From: Gammaproteobacteria bacterium
GTDB taxonomy: Bacteria; Pseudomonadota; Gammaproteobacteria; Chromatiales; Chromatiaceae
Direction: 5' to 3'
Assembly (NCBI GenBank): GCA_020445405.1
Contig: JAGRGQ010000002.1
Location: 124,001-188,000 of the forward strand
DNA: 64,000 nucleotides
The notes below the pieces were generated by a model that saw nothing but the letters and a program-made list of their open reading frames with translations, ran no database searches and was not told the origin of the DNA. Within the stretch, counting starts at the first letter, position 1. Each line of letters begins with the position of its first letter. Below are positions 4,952 through 21,024 of the stretch, in pieces. The translations under genes were made by a program, and so were the position numbers.

Positions 4952-5506
4952 ATGAAAAAAAATATCAATGCGTTGATTCTGGCTGCGGTTATAAGCCTGC
5001 TTATCGTGGCTGTCGGCCTGGGTTTTTTGTTTGGGCCTGCAAATCCCGTCCCCTGGATTCTGATTGGCGTATTAATCGCCATTGTCGTGGCCTACCGATG
5101 GGTATCCTCGCGCGACCGGGTTGAATGGAAGGAGGCCTATTCCGTCGGCGTGGATGAACTGGATGACGATCATAAACGCCTGATTGAACTGCTTAATCGA
5201 TTCCAGACAGCCTATAAGTATCACACCGGCGAGGAGTTCGAGCGTCAGGCGCTCAATGAACTGGTGGATTACACCAAATACCATTTTGAGCGCGAAGAGA
5301 AGATGATGGAGGCGGCGGATTATCCCGATCTGCAGGCACACAAAGAGGCACATCGGAGCATGATTGCCAAGGTTGACGAATTTCAACAGGAGTATCAACA
5401 GCACGGCCACGAGGCGCTTGATGGTGTCGCCCGTTTTCTCAGCGATTGGCTGATCGAACACATCAATGGAACAGACAAGAAATACGGGCCTTACATCAGC
5501 CGATAG
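4952..5506 (+). CDS. Membrane-anchored bacteriohemerythrin
   Basis: The 184-residue protein has two N-terminal membrane helices (about 6-28 and 34-50) and then a cytoplasmic or surface-facing hemerythrin domain. The seven di-iron ligands of the family can be traced: H74, H111, E115, H130, H134, H170 and D175 (the last two as HINGTD). Hemerythrins bind O2 reversibly, and some bind or detoxify NO. The gene stands alone on the plus strand between nirS and the octahaem cytochrome, which are both on the minus strand, so a role in oxygen or NO handling next to a NO-producing enzyme is plausible but inferred. The ATG at 4952 has GGAAG about 7 bases upstream. I see no FNR box before it. Confidence 0.9.
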   Translation: MKKNINALILAAVISLLIVAVGLGFLFGPANPVPWILIGVLIAIVVAYRWVSSRDRVEWKEAYSVGVDELDDDHKRLIELLNRFQTAYKYHTGEEFERQALNELVDYTKYHFEREEKMMEAADYPDLQAHKEAHRSMIAKVDEFQQEYQQHGHEALDGVARFLSDWLIEHINGTDKKYGPYISR

Positions 5507-8800: not shown

Positions 8801-9439
8801 TTAGTCTCGTTGTTTGCGCCGCCGCGCCAACGGAACAAGGCCGAGCAATCCGGAGCCGATCAGCCAGGCGGCTGCCGGAATGGGCACAGTCGCCGCTGAA
8901 GGAACAGCTGTAATGGTCATCGAATAGGCATTTGCATTGGCTGAAGAGAGAGACCATGTTGCGGCGGTGGATCCCAATGCACCGAGAGTGTCTGTAAGTG
9001 TTCCGGTTCCTGCCAGGGATAACAGCAGGATATTGCGGGGAGTCTCGAACGCGACCGAGTCAAGTTGGAAAGACCATCCCCCGATGTTGATGAAATTGCT
9101 TATCGCACCGGTAAATGGGTCGAAAGAGAGATCCAGGACTGAACCAATGCTGCCAAAGCTCACACCGATGTTACCGGTTGCGTTGGAGGTGGCGCCGATG
9201 ATATTTGTGCTGAAATCCAGGCTCGTTATCGTTGAAAGATCATCCCCCGATGGAAGAGAATACCCCCCTGCACCTACCAGTATCATGGTCCCGGTAATGG
9301 CGGCATGAGACGGTATCGCAACCAGTGTGATCGCTGACAGCAGGAGTGAGCATGCCAGAGTTCGAGGCAGCGATGAAGTATTGCCAGCATGCCTACATTG
9401 CTTGTCCCGTGCTTGCAGTTTTTGTATTAATGTTTTCAT
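8801..9439 (-). CDS. Exosortase-substrate-like secreted protein (VPxPA-type C-terminal sorting signal)
   Basis: The 212-residue protein has an N-terminal signal peptide (hydrophobic core about 30-44, cleavage near SHA-AIT), a Gly/Ser/Thr-rich body, and a C-terminal tripartite tail: VPIPAAAWL, a hydrophobic helix, then the basic cluster ARRRKQRD. This tail is the PEP-CTERM-like sorting signal recognised by exosortase, which anchors or releases proteins at the cell surface or into extracellular matrix. The body shares phrases with the next gene upstream (for example DPFTGAISNF against APFSGPIASF), so the two are probably paralogues. Function beyond surface export is unknown. No exosortase gene is in the window. 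Confidence 0.82.
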   Translation of the reverse strand: MKTLIQKLQARDKQCRHAGNTSSLPRTLACSLLLSAITLVAIPSHAAITGTMILVGAGGYSLPSGDDLSTITSLDFSTNIIGATSNATGNIGVSFGSIGSVLDLSFDPFTGAISNFINIGGWSFQLDSVAFETPRNILLLSLAGTGTLTDTLGALGSTAATWSLSSANANAYSMTITAVPSAATVPIPAAAWLIGSGLLGLVPLARRRKQRD

Positions 9440-9524: not shown

Positions 9525-10136
9525 TTAAAATTTGGGGTGCGGTTGTTTCTTCAATGCCCTCGCAGAACCGAACCCAAGCAATCCTATTCCAAGCAGGGCC
9601 GATGTCATGGGTTCCGGCACAGTCGTCGATGACCACCCAAAGTCAATGCCGTTTGTAGTGTCGCCCGCCAGGCTCCAGTTACCGGGGGTTGAGTCCAGAC
9701 CTGCGATGGTAGAGTGGATAACACCGATGCCGGCAAGTGCTATTGCACCGGTGCCCAATGATTTCACAACATGGGTGACAGACGTCAGGTCGAAGGTGAA
9801 ACCATAGGTCGAGAGGTCCCAGAAGCTGGCGATGGGACCGCTGAAAGGTGCGAACTGAAAATCCGTAATGTTGCCAACGGCTAGAAAAGGTATGCCGCTG
9901 AAATCCCCTGTCGAACCTGTCACAATAAACGTATTCAAGTTATTTGGGGGTGGAAGGGGGATAAAATCGATGCCGGTGGATTGGCTCAGCGACGTCTGAT
10001 TACCGGATGCGTCAATGAGTTCAAAACTGCCGCCAATGCTGATAGAGCCCGTGATAGGCCCAGCATGGGCCAGCATCGTGCACCAGGCGAGGGCCACTGC
10101 AACCAGCCACCTGAAAATTTCTCTGAAGGTGCGCAT
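9525..10136 (-). CDS. PEP-CTERM secreted protein
   Basis: The 203-residue protein has a signal peptide (cleavage near AHA-GPI), a low-complexity beta-rich body and a C-terminal VPEPMTSALLGIGLLGFG tail with a short basic end (ARALKKQ), the classical PEP-CTERM signal. I chose the ATG at 10136, because AAGGAACAG precedes it at good spacing and the signal peptide then begins MRTFREIF; a longer frame to 10217 adds an unlikely basic leader. It lies 85 bases upstream of its likely paralogue on the same strand. A palindrome at 10253-10265 could be its operator. Confidence 0.82.
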   Translation of the reverse strand: MRTFREIFRWLVAVALAWCTMLAHAGPITGSISIGGSFELIDASGNQTSLSQSTGIDFIPLPPPNNLNTFIVTGSTGDFSGIPFLAVGNITDFQFAPFSGPIASFWDLSTYGFTFDLTSVTHVVKSLGTGAIALAGIGVIHSTIAGLDSTPGNWSLAGDTTNGIDFGWSSTTVPEPMTSALLGIGLLGFGSARALKKQPHPKF

Positions 10137-10252
10137 AATCTGTTCCTTAAAATGGTAATTGTTAGGACGCAATTTCCTACGTCGCACCAAAAATATACCG
10201 TATCTAAATATAAGCATTGATCATACCAAATTTATATTAATAATAATTATCA

Positions 10253-10494: not shown

Positions 10495-12273
10495 TCAGCT
10501 GTCGACCACCAGTTTCCGTACTACGTCGGTCAGCGAGATGATACCGACAGGCACGTCCAGCCCATCCCGTTTCTCGGTCACCACCAGACGGTGGATCCGC
10601 AGCTTCGTCATGGTAGTCACGGCATCCGAAAGTGCCGTCTCCTGATCGCAGGTCAGACAGCCCTCGTTCATGATTTCGCGTGCTGTCATTGTGCGCAGAT
10701 CGTCGGCGTTGCGGCCCTGCCTCGCCAGCACGATATCGGTCTGGGAGACCACACCGATAGCCTGATCATCCTGTTTTACAATGACCGCGTGGATATCGTT
10801 GCCGATCATGGTGCGGGCGACGGTTTCAACGCTGTCTTCCGGTCCGCAGGAGATCAGACCCAGGAACATCAGGTCTTTGACCTTGGTGCCGTCATCCACC
10901 ATTACCGGCTCGGTATCCTCCTCCACGTCTATGCCGGGCAGAGCATAATCGGCCGGGAATGGGTTGGGGGTGCTGTGAACTGTAGCAAGAGGCACATTCC
11001 GGGCGTCGATGCTCGCCGGCACCGGTGCCTCTGCGGTTGCTCCCAGACCGAAGTCCGGCGCTCCGATCAATACTGACATGTTGCCGTGGGGGTGTTTGTT
11101 CTCGTACATCAACTGATGTGCCTGCGGCAGCTCTGCGCAGGTAAATGCGCGCGACAGGCAGGGATCCAGATGTCCTGCAATGGCCAGCTGATTCATCGCA
11201 TAGGACTGATCGTCATTGGCGAAATGGGAGCCCTGAACCCGTTTCTGCCGCATCCACAGGTAGCGCAGGTCGACGGTGGCGTTGTAACCCGATGTCCCTG
11301 CGCAGATGACGACCGAACCTCCTGTCTCGCAGACAAACATGGAGGTGGGCATGGTCGATTCACCGGGATGCTCGAAGACGATATTGGGGCCGCGTTTTTC
11401 CCCCAGTACTTCCCAGATCGCGGCGCCGAATTTGCGCACACCCTTGAGCCAATTGCCGTAACCGACGTTGTCCTTCCAGTGCGGGAGCATACCCCAGTGA
11501 TCGAAAGCGTTGCGGTCGATGCAGCCTTTGGCACCCAGTTTTTCGCAGTATTCGATCTTGTTGCTGTTTGAGATGACCGCGATCGAGGTCGCGCCCGCTG
11601 CCTTGCAGATCTGAATGGCCATGGAACCCAAGCCGCCTGCGCCACCCCAGATCAATGCGACGTCTCCCTGCTTGATTGCATGTTCGCTCCAGCCGTGCAG
11701 CATACGGTAGGCGGTTGCGCCGACCAGAACGTAGGATGCAGCCGCTTCCCAAGTCATGTGCTTGGGTTTGGGCATGCACTGATGTGCCTGGACTTTGGTG
11801 AACTGGGCAAAACTGCCGTAATTTGTCTCGTAGCCCCAGATTCTGAAGGTGGGGGAGTACATCGGATCACCGCCTTTCAGCACGTGGGGGCAGTTTCTGT
11901 CCCAGGTGCCGCAGTGGGCCACTACTTCGTCGCCAACTTTGATGTTGGTAACGTCCTTGCCCACTTTGTAGACGATGCCGGACGCGTCGCTGCCGCCGAT
12001 GTGGAAATCCTCGGGTTCACCAGCCTTGTTGCGGGCTTTGATCACATTGACGGGGATTCCCAGTGCCGCCCACACATTGTTGTAGTTGACACCGGCCGCC
12101 ATAACGTAGATCAGCGCTTCGTCGTCGGCGATCTCGGGAACGTCCACCACCTCCATCTGGAACGATTTCGTAGGCTCTCCGAAACGCTCTTCACGAATCA
12201 ACCAGGCATGCATTTTGGCCGGGACTTCTCCAACCGGCGGTGCCTCACCGATATCGTATAGCTCTTTCGTCAT
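10495..12273 (-). CDS. ccr: Crotonyl-CoA carboxylase/reductase with C-terminal CBS-domain pair
   Basis: The enzyme reductively carboxylates crotonyl-CoA to ethylmalonyl-CoA with NADPH, the committed step of the ethylmalonyl-CoA pathway. Residues 1 to about 412 are a full medium-chain reductase: GVNYNNVW at 61-68, GYETNYG at 147-153, the nucleotide-binding GGAGGLG at 210-216, and GSHFAN at 348-353. The Asn, Glu and His of these motifs match the known CO2-handling residues of the family. After a Pro/Ala linker (about 415-460) come two CBS domains (about 464-520 and 530-590; GVVSQTDIV and GIISLTDVV are diagnostic). CBS pairs usually bind AMP, ATP or related ligands. Family members normally stop near 430 residues, so the 592-residue fusion is unusual. 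The ATG has GAGAGG upstream. A 231-base gap separates it from meaB, so it may have its own promoter. Confidence 0.95.
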
Positions 12274-12504: not shown

Positions 12505-13518
12505 CTAAGGCTGCGTCTGTCGCTTCCGCTTACCTCCCCAGCCTTCCAAAAACCGTTGACACAGCAGTTCGAACTGTTCGAATGGCGAGCTTTCGCTCCG
12601 CTCCAGTTCCCGCTTGATCGCGTCAGCCCCACCCAGTGCGTTGATACCGAAGCGGCCAAACTCATCATCCAGACGCTTGAGCACCCACTCCGCCTGGAAT
12701 TGTCTGCGTCGTGCATTTAACTGGTTCTGGTTCAGCAGCCAGCGCCGGTGCGCTTCGATGCCATCAGCCAGTTCCGTTATACCCGTTCCTCTGGCAGCGC
12801 TGGCGGCGAGCGCCGTCACCTGCCAGCTGGACTCATCAACCGCCGGCTTCAGGGTGGCGCGCAATTCTGCCAGCGTCTTGCGTGCCGCCAGACCCAGATC
12901 CGCTTTGTTGACCACCAGCAGGTGCGGTACCTCCATGATACCCGCCTTGAGAAACTGAATGCTGTCGCCCGAAGCCGGCTGAGCCACGAAAACGGTGGTG
13001 TCGGTCAGCTTCGAAACATCTATCTCTTTCTGTCCCACGCCGACGGTCTCAACCAGGACGACATCGAATGCGGTCAGCATCACGAGGCTCATGGGCCAGA
13101 CTTCGGCGCTCAGCCCCCCGAATTCGCCCCTGCAGGCGAGCGATCTGATAAAGACTTCGTTGTCGATCTGGCCGGAGAGCATGCGCAGGCGGTCTCCCAA
13201 CAGTGCGCCGCCGCTGATCGGGCTGGATGGATCCACCGCCAGCACCGCAACCCGCAATCCCCGCTCCCGCCACAACGTGATCAGGGCGGCGGTGATTGAG
13301 GATTTGCCAGCGCCCGGCGGACCGGTCAGGCCGATCAGATGCCCGGATGCGTATAATTTCTGCTGCGGCAGCAACCGCAGCAAACGGGTCGCCCGGCGAC
13401 GCGCCTCGGGACGTTGGTCATCGAGCAGATTGAGCGCCTTCGCCACCGCGGGCCGCTGTCTGTCTATCACCGCTAAGGCCAGCGCATCAGGGTCAGGAAA
13501 TGTACTCGAGGTCAGCAT
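12505..13518 (-). CDS. meaB: MeaB-type GTPase chaperone of the acyl-CoA mutase
   Basis: The 337-residue G3E-family GTPase has Walker A GPPGAGKSS near residue 65, the AVDPSSP switch, ETVGVGQ and the NKAD specificity motif. MeaB proteins protect adenosylcobalamin-dependent acyl-CoA mutases and gate cofactor loading. It starts 5 bases after the ecm stop, so co-translation is likely and its partner is most probably the ethylmalonyl-CoA mutase next door. Length is normal. Confidence 0.95.
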   Translation of the reverse strand: MLTSSTFPDPDALALAVIDRQRPAVAKALNLLDDQRPEARRRATRLLRLLPQQKLYASGHLIGLTGPPGAGKSSITAALITLWRERGLRVAVLAVDPSSPISGGALLGDRLRMLSGQIDNEVFIRSLACRGEFGGLSAEVWPMSLVMLTAFDVVLVETVGVGQKEIDVSKLTDTTVFVAQPASGDSIQFLKAGIMEVPHLLVVNKADLGLAARKTLAELRATLKPAVDESSWQVTALAASAARGTGITELADGIEAHRRWLLNQNQLNARRRQFQAEWVLKRLDDEFGRFGINALGGADAIKRELERSESSPFEQFELLCQRFLEGWGGKRKRQTQP

Positions 13519-13523
13519 CAGTT

Positions 13524-15533
13524 TCAGGCTTCGTAGCGTTCCAGCCCGTTGGATGCGCGGATAATGTTCACCAGATCGAGCATGATCAGGTTCATATCAC
13601 CGTCCTTGGGCGTATAAACTGCCGCAACGCCCAGGGATTTCAGATTGGCTTCGTCTTCCGGCGGAACGATGCCTCCGACAATCACCGGTATTTGCGCCAG
13701 ACCCACGCCTTCCAGCCGGCCCATCGCATCTTCGACCAGTTCCAGATGGCTGCCGGAGAGTACCGACAGTCCGATCAAGTGCACGCCTTCCTCTTCGGCC
13801 GCCTTGACAATCTGCTCGGGGGTCAGTCGGATGCCCTCATAGACCACCTCGAACCCCACATCCCGGGCTTTCACCGCGATCTGTTCAGCGCCGTTGCTGT
13901 GTCCATCGAGTCCGGGTTTGCCCACCAGGATTTTGAGCGGTCGACCGAGTTCCTCACCGGTTTTGCGCGTATGTTCCCGCAGACGGTCGACAGTGTTGGA
14001 GCCGGCCATATTCAGAGTGGAGATATCGATGCCTGTCGGAGCCCGGTATTCGCCAAAGATATCCCGCAGTACACCACTCCATTCACCGGTGGTTACACCG
14101 GCGTGCGCACAGCGGATGGACGCGGGCATGATATTTTCGCCGCTGACGGCCGCTTCCTTGAGATTTTTCAGTGCGGTTTTCACTTCCACCTGGCTGCGCG
14201 CTGCGCGGAACGCCTGCAGGCGCGCAATCTGCTCGCGTTCGGCGGCCGGATCGATCTTCATGATACCGCTGTCGGTACCGGAGGTTAGCGGTGATTCAGC
14301 GGTTTCGGTGAAACTGTTTATGCCGATGATTTTCAGCGCGCCCGTCTCGATGGCACGCATGCGCGCGGTGTGGCTGGTGACCAGCTGGCGTTTGACGTAA
14401 CCGGTCTCGATCGCCTGGACCATGCCCCCCTCTTCCTGCACGCGCCGCATCTCTGCTTCGGCGCCGCCGATCAGATCACGCACCTTGGCATCGATTATCG
14501 GCGAACCATCCAGGATGTCCCCGTACTCCAGAAGATCGGTTTCAATTGCCAGCACCTGTTGCATACGCAGCGCCCACTGCTGGTCCCAGGGGCGGGGCAG
14601 GCCGAGCGCCTCGTTCCAGGCAGGCAACTGAATCGCCCTCGCACGGGCCCTTTTCGACAGTGTCACCCCCAGCATTTCGAGCACGATTCGCTGAACGTTG
14701 TTTTCCGGCTGCGATTCCGTCAGACCCAGGGAGTTGACCTGTACCCCGTAACGGAATCGTCGTAACCTGGGATCCTCCACGCCGTAGCGCTCCCGGGTCA
14801 ACTGCTCCCAGAGGTCTGTGAAGGCGCGCATCTTGCAGCACTCCTCAACGAACCGAATTCCGGCATTCACGAAAAATGAGGTGCGTCCCACGACTTGGGA
14901 AAAGGCATCCGCCGCGATCTGCCCCGAGTCGCGGATGGCGTCCAGAACCGTGATGGCGGTTGAAAGAGCATAGGCGAGTTCCTGCACCGGTGTGGCGCCA
15001 GCCTCCTGCAGATGGTAGCTGCAGATGTTGGTTGGATTCCATTTGGGGATCTGGTTTACCGTATAGCTGATGACGTCAGTGGTCAGCCGCAGTGATGGCT
15101 CCGGTGGAAAGATATAGGTGCCGCGTGAGAGATACTCCTTAATGATGTCGTTCTGGGTGGTGCCCTGGAGCTGGGACTGATTGACGCCCTGTCGTTCGGC
15201 GGCGGCAATGTAGAGCGACAATAACCAGGCCGCGGTTGCGTTGATGGTCATGGAGGTGTTCATCTTGCCCAGCGGAATCTGGTCGAACAGTGTCTCCATG
15301 TCAGCGATATGGCCTATGGGAACTCCGACCTTGCCCACTTCCCCGCGCGCCAGAGGGTGATCAGCGTCGTAGCCGGTCTGGGTGGGAAGATCGAATGCGA
15401 CCGACAACCCGGTCTGGCCCTTGGCCAGGTTGGTCCGGTAGAGTTCGTTGGACGCTTTTGCTGACGAATGTCCTGAGTAGGTGCGCATCAGCCAGGGTAG
15501 GTCTTTCTTTGACTCGGTTTTCTCGCTGGTCAT
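13524..15533 (-). CDS. ecm: Ethylmalonyl-CoA mutase (adenosylcobalamin-dependent)
   Basis: The 669-residue enzyme rearranges (2R)-ethylmalonyl-CoA to methylsuccinyl-CoA. It has the TIM-barrel substrate domain (RTYSGHSSAKASNELYRTNL, then FDLPTQTGYD) and a C-terminal B12 domain with the base-off motif DGHSNG. It lacks the longer N-terminus of methylmalonyl-CoA mutase and is close to Ecm length. The flanking mcd, meaB and ccr genes are the other steps of the same pathway, which favours Ecm over methylmalonyl-CoA mutase. The main doubt is substrate preference, which sequence reading alone cannot prove. Confidence 0.9.
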   Translation of the reverse strand: MTSEKTESKKDLPWLMRTYSGHSSAKASNELYRTNLAKGQTGLSVAFDLPTQTGYDADHPLARGEVGKVGVPIGHIADMETLFDQIPLGKMNTSMTINATAAWLLSLYIAAAERQGVNQSQLQGTTQNDIIKEYLSRGTYIFPPEPSLRLTTDVISYTVNQIPKWNPTNICSYHLQEAGATPVQELAYALSTAITVLDAIRDSGQIAADAFSQVVGRTSFFVNAGIRFVEECCKMRAFTDLWEQLTRERYGVEDPRLRRFRYGVQVNSLGLTESQPENNVQRIVLEMLGVTLSKRARARAIQLPAWNEALGLPRPWDQQWALRMQQVLAIETDLLEYGDILDGSPIIDAKVRDLIGGAEAEMRRVQEEGGMVQAIETGYVKRQLVTSHTARMRAIETGALKIIGINSFTETAESPLTSGTDSGIMKIDPAAEREQIARLQAFRAARSQVEVKTALKNLKEAAVSGENIMPASIRCAHAGVTTGEWSGVLRDIFGEYRAPTGIDISTLNMAGSNTVDRLREHTRKTGEELGRPLKILVGKPGLDGHSNGAEQIAVKARDVGFEVVYEGIRLTPEQIVKAAEEEGVHLIGLSVLSGSHLELVEDAMGRLEGVGLAQIPVIVGGIVPPEDEANLKSLGVAAVYTPKDGDMNLIMLDLVNIIRASNGLERYEA

Positions 15534-15591: not shown

Positions 15592-17301
15592 TCAGGCGCC
15601 CGTTTCGCCCGCTCTGTCGATCAGTGCCCGGGCGATCACCTTCAGCGCCAGAATCTCCTCAACGCCTTCGAAGATCGAGAGCACCCGGGCATCCAGGAAG
15701 TAGCGGCTTACCGGCATCTCCTCAGCGTAGCCCATGCCGCCGTGGATCTGCTGCGCCTCCCGTGTCACCCACTCCGCGGTTTTGCAGGTGAAGAATTTGA
15801 CCATGCTCGCTTCCATCTCTCCCTTTCCCTGGTCCATCAGGCGACCGACGGCATAGGTGAACTGGCGGCTGGCAAGGAGATAGGCTGCAAGGCGCGCCAG
15901 TTTAACCTGAGTCAGCTGATATTTATTGATGGAGTTTCCGAACACCTGGCGCTCGTCGGCATACGCGACGGCGCGTTCGAAAGCCGCCTGCATCAGGCCG
16001 ACGGCACGCGCAGCGGTCTGAATTCGGCCACCTGCGAAACCCGCCATGGTGAAATAGAAACCTTTGCCTTCACCTTCGGGGCCGCCCAGCAGGTTCTCTG
16101 CGGGTACGAGATAGTTGTCGAAGAATACATCGTAGGAGTGCATGCCACGGTATCCGATGGTTGAGATCGCCTTACCGGTGATTACCCCGCCGCCCTCCTG
16201 TTGATGCTTGAACTCATGGCCATCAGAAGAGGGCTTCTCCACCAGAAACATGGACAATCCTTTGTGACCCTTGGAAAGATCCGGATCGGTGCGGGCCAGC
16301 AGCAGCAGTACACCCGCTTTGCCGCCGAAGGTACACCAGGTTTTGGCTCCGTTGATGAGCCAGCCGCCTTCAGTGCGGGTCGCCTTGCAGCGCATGCCGG
16401 CGACGTCGGAACCGTAGTTGGGTTCTGTAACCGCCACAGCGCAAAGAGGGTTGGCTTCCGCCAGTCGGGGCAGCCATTTCTGCTTCTGCTCCTCGGTGCC
16501 GCCCTTCAGCAGTGCGCGGGTCAGGATCTCGGGCCGGGTAATCAGGCTGCCGGCGGCGCCGAGTGAACCTCTTGAGAGCTCCTCGGTAACCACGATCATA
16601 CCCATGTTATCTTCGTGGTCATCCGCTTGCAGTCCGCCGAAGCGCTCGGGAATCGAGAGGCCGAAACAGCCCAGTTCAGTCAATCCTTCCAGGATCTCGT
16701 CGGGTATGATCAAGTCCTCCCGGTGGATATCCTCGGCCAGCGGCATTACCACATCGTTGGCGAATCTGCGGAAGGTGTCGCGCATCATCTCATGGTCGTC
16801 GTCGAGCAGGTACGCGCCGGTGCGTCCGTCCATTTCTGCAACGGCTTTGCCCAGTTCCGCCATCTGGGCAACCGCCAACTGTTCCGAGCAGAAAGCCTGC
16901 AGTGATTCACTGTCCAGGGTTTTGGCGAGGATGGTTCGGGTCAATCCATAGTCCTGGGGACGCAACTCGAGCCGTGCCCGGATGGATTCGATGGCTTCGG
17001 CGGTGAACAGCAGGGCACAGCGCTCTTCCAGCGTGATTGGCCGGGTGGGATCCCCTTCCTGCTCGCGAACCCGCTCTGCGTAATCGAGCACAAACCACGC
17101 CCCCGCCGCTTCCGCAGCAGAGAGAGCGGTGTCGTAGGAGACAAGCTGAAAATCGTCGAGTTTGGATGCGGATACGCGGCCGTCCACCAGCACGTGTTCT
17201 CTCAGGCTCCTGATTGCTGTGTTCAGCGCTTTTTCTGTTGCTGCGAGCGACAGGCGCGCCTGTTGCATCAGTTTGTCCGCTTGAAGTAGCTGTTCCGACA
17301 T
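15592..17301 (-). CDS. mcd: Methylsuccinyl-CoA dehydrogenase
   Basis: This 569-residue flavoprotein of the acyl-CoA dehydrogenase family oxidises (2S)-methylsuccinyl-CoA to mesaconyl-CoA. The first 155 residues or so are a helical N-terminal extension, absent from ordinary acyl-CoA dehydrogenases but typical of Mcd. The dehydrogenase core follows (AVTEPNYGSDVAGM, then QIHGGMGYAEE near the C-terminus). The ATG at 17301 follows GGGAGTG at good spacing; an in-frame start at 17409 would add an unlikely leader. It is the first gene of the mcd-ecm-meaB-ccr run and lies 58 bases before ecm. Confidence 0.92.
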   Translation of the reverse strand: MSEQLLQADKLMQQARLSLAATEKALNTAIRSLREHVLVDGRVSASKLDDFQLVSYDTALSAAEAAGAWFVLDYAERVREQEGDPTRPITLEERCALLFTAEAIESIRARLELRPQDYGLTRTILAKTLDSESLQAFCSEQLAVAQMAELGKAVAEMDGRTGAYLLDDDHEMMRDTFRRFANDVVMPLAEDIHREDLIIPDEILEGLTELGCFGLSIPERFGGLQADDHEDNMGMIVVTEELSRGSLGAAGSLITRPEILTRALLKGGTEEQKQKWLPRLAEANPLCAVAVTEPNYGSDVAGMRCKATRTEGGWLINGAKTWCTFGGKAGVLLLLARTDPDLSKGHKGLSMFLVEKPSSDGHEFKHQQEGGGVITGKAISTIGYRGMHSYDVFFDNYLVPAENLLGGPEGEGKGFYFTMAGFAGGRIQTAARAVGLMQAAFERAVAYADERQVFGNSINKYQLTQVKLARLAAYLLASRQFTYAVGRLMDQGKGEMEASMVKFFTCKTAEWVTREAQQIHGGMGYAEEMPVSRYFLDARVLSIFEGVEEILALKVIARALIDRAGETGA

Positions 17302-17918
17302 TGTTTCACTCCCGAATTTCCAGATCCAATAGTTGAGTTTCCGCTTTTGGCGGCCTGATTGATAAGCTGTCTTATACCGATCCGGGTGCCCGTTCCTTGC
17401 TCTCTGCACAGGTTGATGGCCACGCTATTCGAGCATAATATGCTGCAACCGCAAAATCCAGAAAAAATCTATATTTGCAGTAGATTTCTCCAGTTATCCA
17501 ATTAGGAAATTTTGTAAAGAAAGAGAAAAGTCAGACCCTTTCGACACATTTTTCATGCTTTGATAAAGGTTGTACGGAGTGAAAAAATGTCGCTGCAACA
17601 GGGTCCTACGAATAGGAGGTTCATGCCGGAGTGACGGCATACTGTGGGAATGCCACGACTATCCGACAACCGGACAGTCAGGTTTGCCATTTGTCTGCGA
17701 ATGAAAATCCCAATGCCGGCGCTCTCCTGCCCCAGCGCGCCCGGTCAGTTAAAAAAACGGATGAGAGAGTAGAATCCACTCCCCGGAAGGGAGACGGGCG
17801 GTTCTGCTTGTCAGTATGGCGTTGTACAGACCGCTGCCGCATTTCGCTTAACGAAGACGCAAAAACCGGTCGTATCGGGCGCGTATTCGGAATGGCGTCC
17901 CAAAAAGCGGTTTGAAGT
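17302..17918. other. Non-coding upstream region of mcd
   Basis: This stretch of about 600 bases lies between mcd and a small membrane protein gene. It is A/T-richer near 17450-17530, where an mcd promoter would be expected, but I could not pick a convincing -35/-10 pair. An open frame at 17631-17915 has no recognisable feature and I do not count it as a gene. Confidence 0.4.
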
Positions 17919-19317: not shown

Positions 19318-21024
19318 TTAAGCGCGTGATCGGGCTATAAGATCCGGTGCTATCACGTCGAATATTCGGCTATGCTCGGCATCTCTCTGCTTTTCCTCAA
19401 ACACCAGCGTATCCGCGATGCTGAATACGCCGTTCCGCACTTTCACGTAGATGGTATCCGTCATACGGTCGATGAAATTGACTTCAGGGATTTTCTTTAC
19501 GCACTGATTCAGAAACCCCACATTGTTCTCAACCGACATGATTGACCCCGAAGGGTAAACCTCCTCGGCCCGCTTGGCCCGGGTATTGATCTTCTGGTAA
19601 CGCTCGATGTCGATGAAAATCGAGCAGTTCACGATGTTCATCTCTTTCTGTGTACCAAATGCGATGGTTCCGGGAAAAGTCCCCTTGGGAACACTGTTAT
19701 CCAGAAAACGGTACCGGAACAGGGGACAGTCGTAGGCAAGCCACTTGAACAGTATCCTGGGCATTCCGACGTAGGCTTCGACGCTGTGAGCGAGAAAATC
19801 CTCTACCGCCTTGTAACGTCCGGTCTGCAGGCCGCGTTCCCAGCCGCGCTCCACCGTCGCATGGGGCGGTGTGACGATAAAATACATCTCCAGGGTGTTT
19901 ACATGTTTCAAATAGGTATTGTGCAGAATTTTGGCAATACCTTCGGTGGAAAAGCTGTCGAACCGGAAGCGATCCACCAGCAGGTGCGGCAGCGCTCCGA
20001 TTCGGTCTGCCTTGTCCCGGATATAGCGGTCGAGCTTGGCATCGATGAGAATCACCTCGTGGCTGGTAAAGCGTCCCGCGTACTTTTGCGCCGTGCCCAA
20101 TGACTCGTAGTCGATAAGCAGGCGCCGCCAGATATCGGGGCTGATTGTGGCATAACCTCCAGGCTGAATACCGCGTTCGCTCATCAATTGTCTCAACATG
20201 GAGCGGAGCGAACTCTTGCCGGCTGCCGATGCACCCTTGAGACTGATCAACAGCGGTGTATCCACGCTGGTAATTCGGGTGTATCCCTCCTTTTCTATAG
20301 CCCGATCGATCAGCGGCGCGATTTTCTGTCCGATGAACTCACTGCCATAAGTGTTGCAGATGCGATTGCACGTCAGGTTGATCAGAAATGCACTGTCCGG
20401 CCCGAGGTAGCCGCGATTGCCGGCGATGCACCCCAAGACATGGTAGAGATTTCTGAATATCGCTCTACTCAGCGGGTCACTGGCATCCAGACCCTGCTCT
20501 TTGATAACGGATATGGCTCGATGCTCTCGCTCCAGAATCGATTCCCGGCCCTGGGGTTTGATTCGTTTTCCGGCGCGCGGACAAAATGAGAAAAACCGTT
20601 TCCTGGGCAACTCCGAACGCGGTGTGGAAAACAGCGATTCAACGAGCACCTGCTCAACCCTGCTGTAAACCTGAGTGCGAAGTTGCTTGAAATCCTGCGT
20701 CAACTCGGCCATAAAAGGCTGGATATAGCGGGTTAAAATAGTCTTGCTGACGCGGCGGAAGTTTCTGCCCAGCTCGATCTCGTCGCTTCCTTCAAGCACG
20801 ACGATATCAGCGGTAACCCTGATGATCAGTTCATGAAGCGCAAGGCGTTCCGGTCTGAACACGACCAGTTCTACCGGGTCGAGGCCTGTTTCTCCTGAAA
20901 TTTCGTCTATATCCGCGGTACACGAAGTGACGTTTTCGGGTCGATAGATAGTCTCCAATGTTCGGAAGGCACGCGGTATCTCCGACTCTAGGCCGGGGTT
21001 CCAGGCTGAGTTTCCCTCTTTCAT
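19318..21024 (-). CDS. Large P-loop kinase-like protein of unknown function
   Basis: The 568-residue soluble protein has a helical N-terminal region (1 to about 250) without a known motif. A P-loop follows (GASAAGKSS at 264-272). The next part, with ISPDIWRRLL and a basic stretch around VDRFRFDSF, recalls zeta-toxin or small-molecule kinase folds, in which an acidic residue after the P-loop binds the phosphate acceptor. A C-terminal region with paired aromatic and acidic residues remains unexplained. No small antitoxin-like gene adjoins it, so a toxin-antitoxin role is not supported. It stands alone, flanked by non-coding DNA. Confidence 0.8.
   Translation of the reverse strand: MKEGNSAWNPGLESEIPRAFRTLETIYRPENVTSCTADIDEISGETGLDPVELVVFRPERLALHELIIRVTADIVVLEGSDEIELGRNFRRVSKTILTRYIQPFMAELTQDFKQLRTQVYSRVEQVLVESLFSTPRSELPRKRFFSFCPRAGKRIKPQGRESILEREHRAISVIKEQGLDASDPLSRAIFRNLYHVLGCIAGNRGYLGPDSAFLINLTCNRICNTYGSEFIGQKIAPLIDRAIEKEGYTRITSVDTPLLISLKGASAAGKSSLRSMLRQLMSERGIQPGGYATISPDIWRRLLIDYESLGTAQKYAGRFTSHEVILIDAKLDRYIRDKADRIGALPHLLVDRFRFDSFSTEGIAKILHNTYLKHVNTLEMYFIVTPPHATVERGWERGLQTGRYKAVEDFLAHSVEAYVGMPRILFKWLAYDCPLFRYRFLDNSVPKGTFPGTIAFGTQKEMNIVNCSIFIDIERYQKINTRAKRAEEVYPSGSIMSVENNVGFLNQCVKKIPEVNFIDRMTDTIYVKVRNGVFSIADTLVFEEKQRDAEHSRIFDVIAPDLIARSRA

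Follow-up and report, generated by a model that had tools for sequence, protein, structure and literature searches.

The locus analysed here raises the question of whether a crotonyl-CoA carboxylase/reductase (Ccr) carries its own ligand sensor and, if so, to which signal this sensor would respond. It lies in a stretch of 64,000 nucleotides (contig JAGRGQ010000002.1, positions 124,001 to 188,000), referred to as the window, in which an open reading frame of 592 amino acids runs on the minus strand from 12273 to 10495 (ATG to TGA) and consists of a Ccr core, a linker and a pair of CBS domains. The original prediction, made from the DNA letters, had described a full-length reductase followed by a linker and two CBS domains; its coordinates were correct, with the gene on the minus strand, and the anatomy was borne out by Pfam and by the NCBIfam model TIGR01751. 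Pfam placed ADH_N at residues 50-171 and ADH_zinc_N at residues 214-360 and found two CBS stretches (PF00571, E 5.8e-19) within residues 455-592, where the sensor had been expected, the CBS pair spanning approximately residues 459-590. In the full-length model, the linker had a pLDDT below 50 over residues 421-458; as low-confidence stretches were present in the core as well (304-311 and 316-343), this model was consulted solely on the fold class and on disorder. The features of the locus are listed in Table 1.

Table 1. Features of the fused ccr gene and its neighbours in the window.
Feature	Position	Strand	Remarks
CBS domain 2	10510..10683	minus	residues 531-588; motif GIISLTD
CBS domain 1	10714..10887	minus	approximately residues 463-520; motif GVVSQTD
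Cys476, Cys539 and Cys542 codons	10848-10846, 10659-10657, 10650-10648	minus	in the CBS tail
Linker	10900..11043	minus	residues 411-458; weak conservation, predicted disordered
Ccr catalytic core	11044..12273	minus	residues 1-410; TIGR01751, ADH_N and ADH_zinc_N
MeaB-type GTPase (B12-mutase chaperone)	12505..13518	minus	TIGR00750, 246.7 bits (cut-off 240.75)
B12-dependent acyl-CoA mutase, likely ecm	13524..15533	minus	531 vs 876 bits
Acyl-CoA dehydrogenase, likely mcd	15592..17409	minus	N-terminal extension of about 200 residues; start uncertain

The search for the same fusion in other genomes recovered 60 fused loci in a genome scan. Together with the window, 59 of these form a set of 60 intact fused sequences of 582-599 amino acids without internal stop or frameshift, so that the break between the two parts by which the fusion might have been refuted was seen in none of these 60; a single further fused locus (L062) was frameshifted, on a contig with a coverage of 2.5. 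A pure assembly artefact or a chance event is ruled out by 60 intact fused copies, and the Ccr-CBS fusion is confirmed as real. One locus (L061) was considered as a separated Ccr and CBS protein and rejected, as the tblastn match crossed a stop into other sequence; the Ccr encoded there is a plain one, and no CBS domain was seen in the reading frames that follow it. L061 and L062 were left out of the set of 60 sequences used below, and 34 of the 60 are contained in alignment A3.

The core scored 559.4 bits against TIGR01751, the crotonyl-CoA carboxylase/reductase model, over residues 17-413 (cut-off 378.55). We take Asn63, Asn65, Glu149 and His350 to match the CO2-pocket columns of the reviewed Kitasatospora enzyme, and these candidates are kept in all 60 fused sequences. 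The pocket itself has been described by residue type only, as His, Asn, Glu and Phe (excerpt of PMC10176493). The fused sequences have Tyr148 in place of Phe in 60/60 cases, a position occupied by Phe in the Kitasatospora enzyme and by Tyr in the Ccr of M. extorquens (4gi2). The best explanation of these features is a fused protein that is predicted to be an active crotonyl-CoA carboxylase/reductase.

The neighbouring genes point to the ethylmalonyl-CoA (EMC) pathway. Upstream of ccr and on the same strand lies meaB, separated by a gap of 231 bases, followed by the mutase gene, whose product reached 531 bits as opposed to the equivalog cut-off of 876 for methylmalonyl-CoA mutase and is 62-67% identical to mutases adjoining plain ccr genes (79% in one partial match). 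Since it falls far below this cut-off and resembles ccr-adjacent mutases, it is most likely an ethylmalonyl-CoA mutase (ecm), and the acyl-CoA dehydrogenase is most likely a (2S)-methylsuccinyl-CoA dehydrogenase (mcd). The ccr-, ecm- and mcd-like genes of the pathway thus stand side by side in the window. In 39 of the 60 fused loci, ecm and meaB precede ccr in the same orientation, as a rule with mcd still further upstream, while a divergent ecm with a downstream mcd was found in eight (Defluviicoccus, Rhodospirillales, L048 and L051); meaB lies on a cut contig in four, and neither arrangement was found within the available stretch in nine. These varied gene orders suggest that the tail travels with the ccr gene and not with one gene order.

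Several further genes were observed around ccr. In many loci (L017, L023, L026 and others from Accumulibacter and Competibacteraceae), a gene for a second medium-chain reductase, which shares about 21-29% identity with the Ccr core, lies directly 3' of the fused ccr. In the window, two secreted-looking proteins without a Pfam match adjoin ccr (8801-9439 and 9525-10217, minus strand), the C-terminal tails of which we take to be of the PEP-CTERM-like sorting type. Further away are a multi-haem cytochrome (PF13447; 5863-7326, minus), a protein with cytochrome c and cytochrome d1 heme domains (PF02239; 2736-4379, minus), presumably of the nitrite-reductase type, and, near these two cytochrome genes, a hemerythrin (4952-5506, plus). 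A 568-amino-acid protein (19318-21024, minus) resembles zeta toxins only weakly, with a score short of the cut-off.

The tail was modelled separately with a mean pLDDT of 86.9, and the 50 structural matches listed had VIA Z scores of 15.6-18.0. MJ0100 (SAM/MTA), AcuB (AMP/ADP), CBSX2 with AMP and CBS-CP12 gave Z scores of 16.8-18.0, with 123-128 residues aligned at an rmsd of 1.6-3.4 A. The tail profile also matched AMPK gamma-1 (E 4.6e-14 to 9.2e-14), and in the single tail sequence a stretch of 13 residues pairs with VHRLVV..GIVSLSD of AMPK gamma-1. In CBS1, Gly507, Ser510, Thr512 and Asp513 are present in 60/60 fused sequences and His495 in 57/60; in CBS2, Gly577, His561 and Asp583 are found in 60/60, Arg562 in 58/60 and Ser580 in 57/60, so that each site has an invariant candidate ribose-binding Asp (Asp513 and Asp583). 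In AcuB, the riboses are bound by Asp52 and Asp122, and His34 bridges the alpha-phosphates (excerpt of PMC13121692). A constant offset of 14, derived from the alignment ranges, gives tail positions 66, 136 and 48 for these three residues, which would correspond to Asp513, Asp583 and His495. In AMPK, the CBS2 site has another residue in place of the ribose Asp and shows no binding (excerpt of PMC5535039). Because of the invariant pair of ribose Asp residues, the HR motif, and the fold neighbours that bind AMP, ADP or ATP, nucleotide sensing is the best-supported role predicted for the CBS pair, and Ccr may be tuned by energy charge, as the original prediction had proposed.

However, the fold does not settle the ligand, since MJ0100 with bound SAM/MTA has the top VIA Z score among the matches listed (18.0), tied with AcuB. 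The CBS pair might therefore sense another adenosyl ligand, such as SAM, Ap4A, c-di-AMP or the adenosine part of CoA or NADPH, instead of the ratios of AMP, ADP and ATP. Human cystathionine beta-synthase with SAM, DarB with c-di-AMP and AcuB with Ap4A are likewise among the listed fold neighbours, and a ribose-binding Asp would be common to adenosyl ligands in general. We nevertheless regard this explanation as unlikely, as His561 and Arg562 on the phosphate side of CBS2, together with His495, would point to phosphorylated ligands.

We retain adenine nucleotides as the preferred ligands. The fused protein is probably an active Ccr whose C-terminal CBS pair, a Bateman module, serves as an allosteric switch within the same protein, operated by bound adenine nucleotides, at the committed step of the EMC pathway, as judged from sequence and structural models. 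AMP or ADP would compete with ATP for two sites per subunit, the CBS pairs would dimerise across Ccr subunits, and the bound nucleotide would shift the CBS dimer and, via the linker, the arrangement of the Ccr subunits, thereby altering activity. Ccr enzymes occur as tetramers or dimers, and a preprint proposes that their oligomery affects activity (excerpt of PMC12632816). As for the direction of control, we slightly prefer inhibition by AMP (and ADP) with relief by ATP to the opposite sign, an expectation drawn by analogy from CBS-pyrophosphatase, in which AMP and ADP inhibit and ATP relieves.

The proposed link between oligomery and Ccr activity (excerpt of PMC12632816) would also suit a tail of mainly structural function, in which contacts between CBS domains set the oligomeric state or tether a partner such as the mutase or a PHA granule, without any control by a ligand. 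The CBS domains of CBS-pyrophosphatase permit tetramerisation (excerpt of PMC10742508), and the long, disordered linker would allow a loose scaffold role. However, the residues of the ligand sites belong to the best-conserved positions in the tail, even if other tail residues are invariant as well, and we consider a purely structural tail improbable.

Three cysteines in the tail are mostly conserved, Cys476 in 57/60, Cys539 in 54/60 and Cys542 in 49/60 fused sequences, the latter two within a GCxTC pattern in CBS2, and they form a possible, putative thiol or metal site. From such a site it could be argued that the CBS pair senses redox state or a metal, with a disulfide or a bound metal reporting the switch between anaerobic and aerobic conditions. 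A zinc-bound CBS protein, HRP1, is among the fold neighbours of the tail, and the host genera that accumulate polyphosphate (PAO) or glycogen (GAO) alternate between anaerobic and aerobic phases (excerpts of PMC8956781, PMC12604563 and PMC9041414). However, Cys542 is replaced by Val or Ile in 11/60 sequences (Caenispirillum, Defluviicoccus, L051, L060 and others), and Cys539 and Cys476 are lost in some sequences, whereas the ribose Asp never is. We regard a sensor of this type as very improbable.

The conservation of the three parts was compared. With gaps treated as a further letter, the mean column identity over the 60 fused sequences is 87% for the core, 70% for the linker and 77% for the CBS part. 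In 13 chosen close pairs, the dN/dS of the tail was 0.04-0.23 throughout, which places the CBS tail under purifying selection as estimated from these alignments. It exceeded that of the core (0.01-0.10) in 12/13 pairs, in line with the lower identity of the tail, which evolves faster than the core. The tail was below the linker in just 6/13 pairs, so that the two are not distinguishable among close pairs.

The original prediction had also suggested a lineage-specific invention. This proved too narrow, because the fusion occurs in alpha-, beta- and gammaproteobacterial genomes; the connection with PAO/GAO hosts and with isocitrate lyase, described below, was not part of that prediction. The scan of genome contigs required exact 8-residue peptides and covered the best 80 of 137 relatives, as a result of which diverged fusions are undercounted. 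These 80 comprise 60 fused loci (L005-L065 without L061 and including the frameshifted L062) and 20 plain ones. Within the same best 80 of 137 relatives, 37 of the 60 fused loci belong to named PAO/GAO genera, namely Accumulibacter (19), Competibacter/Competibacteraceae (11), Contendobacter (3), Propionivibrio (2) and Defluviicoccus (2). The other 23 consist of proteobacterial metagenome-assembled genomes (MAGs) without a PAO/GAO name, one further assembly (L048), two Caenispirillum and four single MAGs labelled Deltaproteobacteria, Actinomycetales, Anaerolineae and Synechococcaceae. The prevalence of PAO/GAO among the fused loci is partly a matter of genome availability and shared descent. 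The "Anaerolineae" MAG (L055) and an "Alphaproteobacteria" MAG (L056) contain near-identical fused Ccrs (branch of 0.008 in the first tree described below), probably because one of the two was binned wrongly.

Whole genomes were counted at E <= 1e-60 with the window's genome included, which is 98% complete and has one Ccr. Ccr was found in 4/55 genomes of relatives, all fused, and in 4/369 genomes of the class sample, three fused and one plain (G038), while the phylum sample contained Ccr in 61/398 genomes, fused in two (G000 and G671) and plain only in 59. Ccr was present in 23 of 28 genomes from the genus of Accumulibacter contiguus, invariably in the fused form, and no plain Ccr was found in these 28 genomes; the family sample yielded 6/199, five from that genus and one with a two-piece copy reaching the tail. 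In the family of Competibacter phosphatis, Ccr was detected in 22/39 genomes, 19 with full-length fused genes (23 copies) and three with cut or broken copies, and a full-length plain Ccr was not found in these 39 genomes. Two full-length fused ccr genes each were found in four genomes of this family (L035 and L040; G794, G800, G1290, G1307). In the phylum of L061, labelled Actinomycetota, Ccr was present in 35/246 genomes at E <= 1e-100, and none of the 35 matches had a CBS tail in an open frame, the row of G810 crossing a stop. Spread by plasmids was not seen, as 0/72,556 plasmid records contained at least 80% of the query in one place. Since the whole-genome samples overlap with the scan loci (L085-L087 repeat L005, L006 and L009), the counts are not independent.

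Two phylogenetic trees were constructed from the Ccr core only. The first contained 36/61 fused and 20/51 plain sequences and showed long branches from plasmid Ccrs; these were left out of the second tree, with 35 fused and 22 plain sequences. The fused Ccrs are separated from those of alphaproteobacteria, and the plain Ccrs of the phylum of L061 form a well-supported clade (100/99) beside the fused ones, the basal fork being open. The label fused or plain requires three changes in both trees, as opposed to a mean of 16.7-17.8 in shuffles, and the branches with starred support force at least two changes in both. Two relatives are without the tail. Of these, the plain L061 lies inside a group of Competibacteraceae, Accumulibacter and L054 (100/99), while the place of the unfused L120 is open in the second tree, like the base. 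Given the few label changes, the nested L061 and the floating L120, one gain and one or two losses of the tail would fit the trees. Accumulibacter sequences are placed among the Competibacteraceae, with starred support in the first tree and an open fork in the second, from which a transfer of ccr between gamma- and betaproteobacteria appears likely. That the tail is a neutral passenger, as its absence from L061 and L120 might suggest, is hardly credible in view of its dN/dS in the 13 pairs and its presence in 23/23 Ccr-bearing genomes of the genus of A. contiguus and in 19/19 genomes with a full-length Ccr of the family of C. phosphatis.

The physiology of the hosts was evaluated with 34 of the 60 fused hosts, which were searched for isocitrate lyase, mesaconyl-CoA hydratase and PhaC. 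Isocitrate lyase was found in 19/34 fused hosts versus 0/5 plain hosts tested alongside and 0/57 plain-Ccr proteobacterial genomes (the 59 above without G603, with 46% identity, and G701, a partial match). Large as this contrast is, it comes from hosts that are related to one another, and the positive fused hosts fall into about four lineages on the tree. Isocitrate lyase was absent in the other 15/34 fused hosts, including the window's genome, so that arbitration between the EMC pathway and the glyoxylate shunt, two pathways for acetate, was rejected as the general reason for the fusion. Paracoccus denitrificans has both Ccr and isocitrate lyase (excerpt of PMC6747724), showing that the two can coexist outside the sampled genomes, and its plasmid record has a ccr match to the core only. 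Mesaconyl-CoA hydratase (PF19315) was detected in the window's genome (G000) with 76.2 bits (cut-off 26.5), and at E <= 1e-20 in only 11/34 fused hosts. PhaC, searched in fused hosts only, was present in 32/34, with three matches in the window's genome. In the literature, ccr, mcd and mch were upregulated over four-fold in an enrichment of Contendobacter, and Competibacter had only five of the seven EMC genes (excerpt of PMC8956781). The EMC genes of Accumulibacter were up at low phosphate (excerpt of PMC12604563), and the pathway is complete in several Defluviicoccus genomes and incomplete in others (excerpt of PMC9041414). For all three of Contendobacter, Accumulibacter and Defluviicoccus, it has been proposed as a source of PHV or as a redox sink (excerpts of PMC8956781, PMC12604563 and PMC9041414).

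In PHA-storing hosts with ATP swings, the adenylate switch would gate the entry of acetyl-CoA/crotonyl-CoA and NADPH into the EMC pathway, with propionyl-CoA for PHV, a redox sink and C4 supply as outlets, and PHB, oxidation and, where present, the glyoxylate shunt as alternatives. The same fusion in phosphate- and glycogen-storing wastewater bacteria suggests an undescribed control point for carbon storage. A more far-reaching and rather doubtful scenario is that a single fusion event placed an adenylate (possibly thiol-redox) switch on the fastest known carboxylase type and that the gene was passed among unrelated PAO/GAO lineages. There it would allow the EMC pathway to coexist with the glyoxylate shunt, and the EMC pathway would be toggled within minutes as ATP rises and falls over anaerobic feast and aerobic famine, which would set the ratio of PHV to PHB. 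Enzymes of the Ccr type have been described as the fastest carboxylases known in nature and serve as core enzymes of non-natural CO2-fixation cycles (excerpt of PMC10176493), for which a natural ligand-switchable Ccr, if confirmed, would be a ready part. It would also reveal post-translational control of the EMC pathway, which was left to future work in a study of Paracoccus denitrificans (excerpt of PMC6747724). Moreover, the fused enzyme offers a single-protein test of energy state versus EMC flux in wastewater bacteria, as well as a marker gene.

No description of a Ccr-CBS fusion was found in the full text of open-licence PMC papers, nor of an allosteric Ccr in the available excerpts of open-licence full-text papers, and the term CBS is absent from the main text of PMC8956781, PMC12604563 and PMC9041414. 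The two open-licence papers that mention both ethylmalonyl-CoA and a CBS domain concern lysine acetylation and the use of phenol by an archaeon. The enzyme is known and the sensor is known; their combination was not found described. In terms of the enzyme, the closest known systems are members of the enoyl-CoA carboxylase/reductase family (PDB 9kva, 4y0k AntE, 4gi2, 6owe and 3hzz), which share the full core, with 51-54% identity to 9kva, AntE and 4gi2 in the Foldseek alignments, and have the CO2-pocket residues and the ecm/mcd neighbourhood in common with the fused enzyme. However, the ten distinct Ccr and octenoyl-CoA sequences from the PDB comprise 410-467 residues and match only the core of the window protein. 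The plain Ccrs of the phylum of L061 (G821, G840, G851, G879 and others) are up to 65% identical to fused Ccr and, unlike it, lack the CBS tail.

In terms of the sensor, AMPK gamma-1 is similar in sequence over the HRLVV...S(L)SD region, but it has four CBS repeats and is a separate regulatory subunit of a kinase. CBS-pyrophosphatase, an enzyme unrelated to Ccr, has its CBS domains inserted rather than placed at the C-terminus. The likeness consists in a CBS pair of its own, with inhibition by AMP and ADP and relief by ATP and Ap4A (excerpt of PMC10742508). AcuB from Bacillus resembles the tail in its CBS fold (Z of about 17) and in the ribose Asp and phosphate His that would match, and it is a CBS sensor of energy charge for acetyl-CoA synthesis, so that the control of acetyl-CoA metabolism is a further likeness (excerpt of PMC13121692, Nat Commun 2026). 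However, AcuB, which contains an ACT domain, is a protein in its own right and targets a deacetylase, whereas here the CBS pair is located on the enzyme itself.
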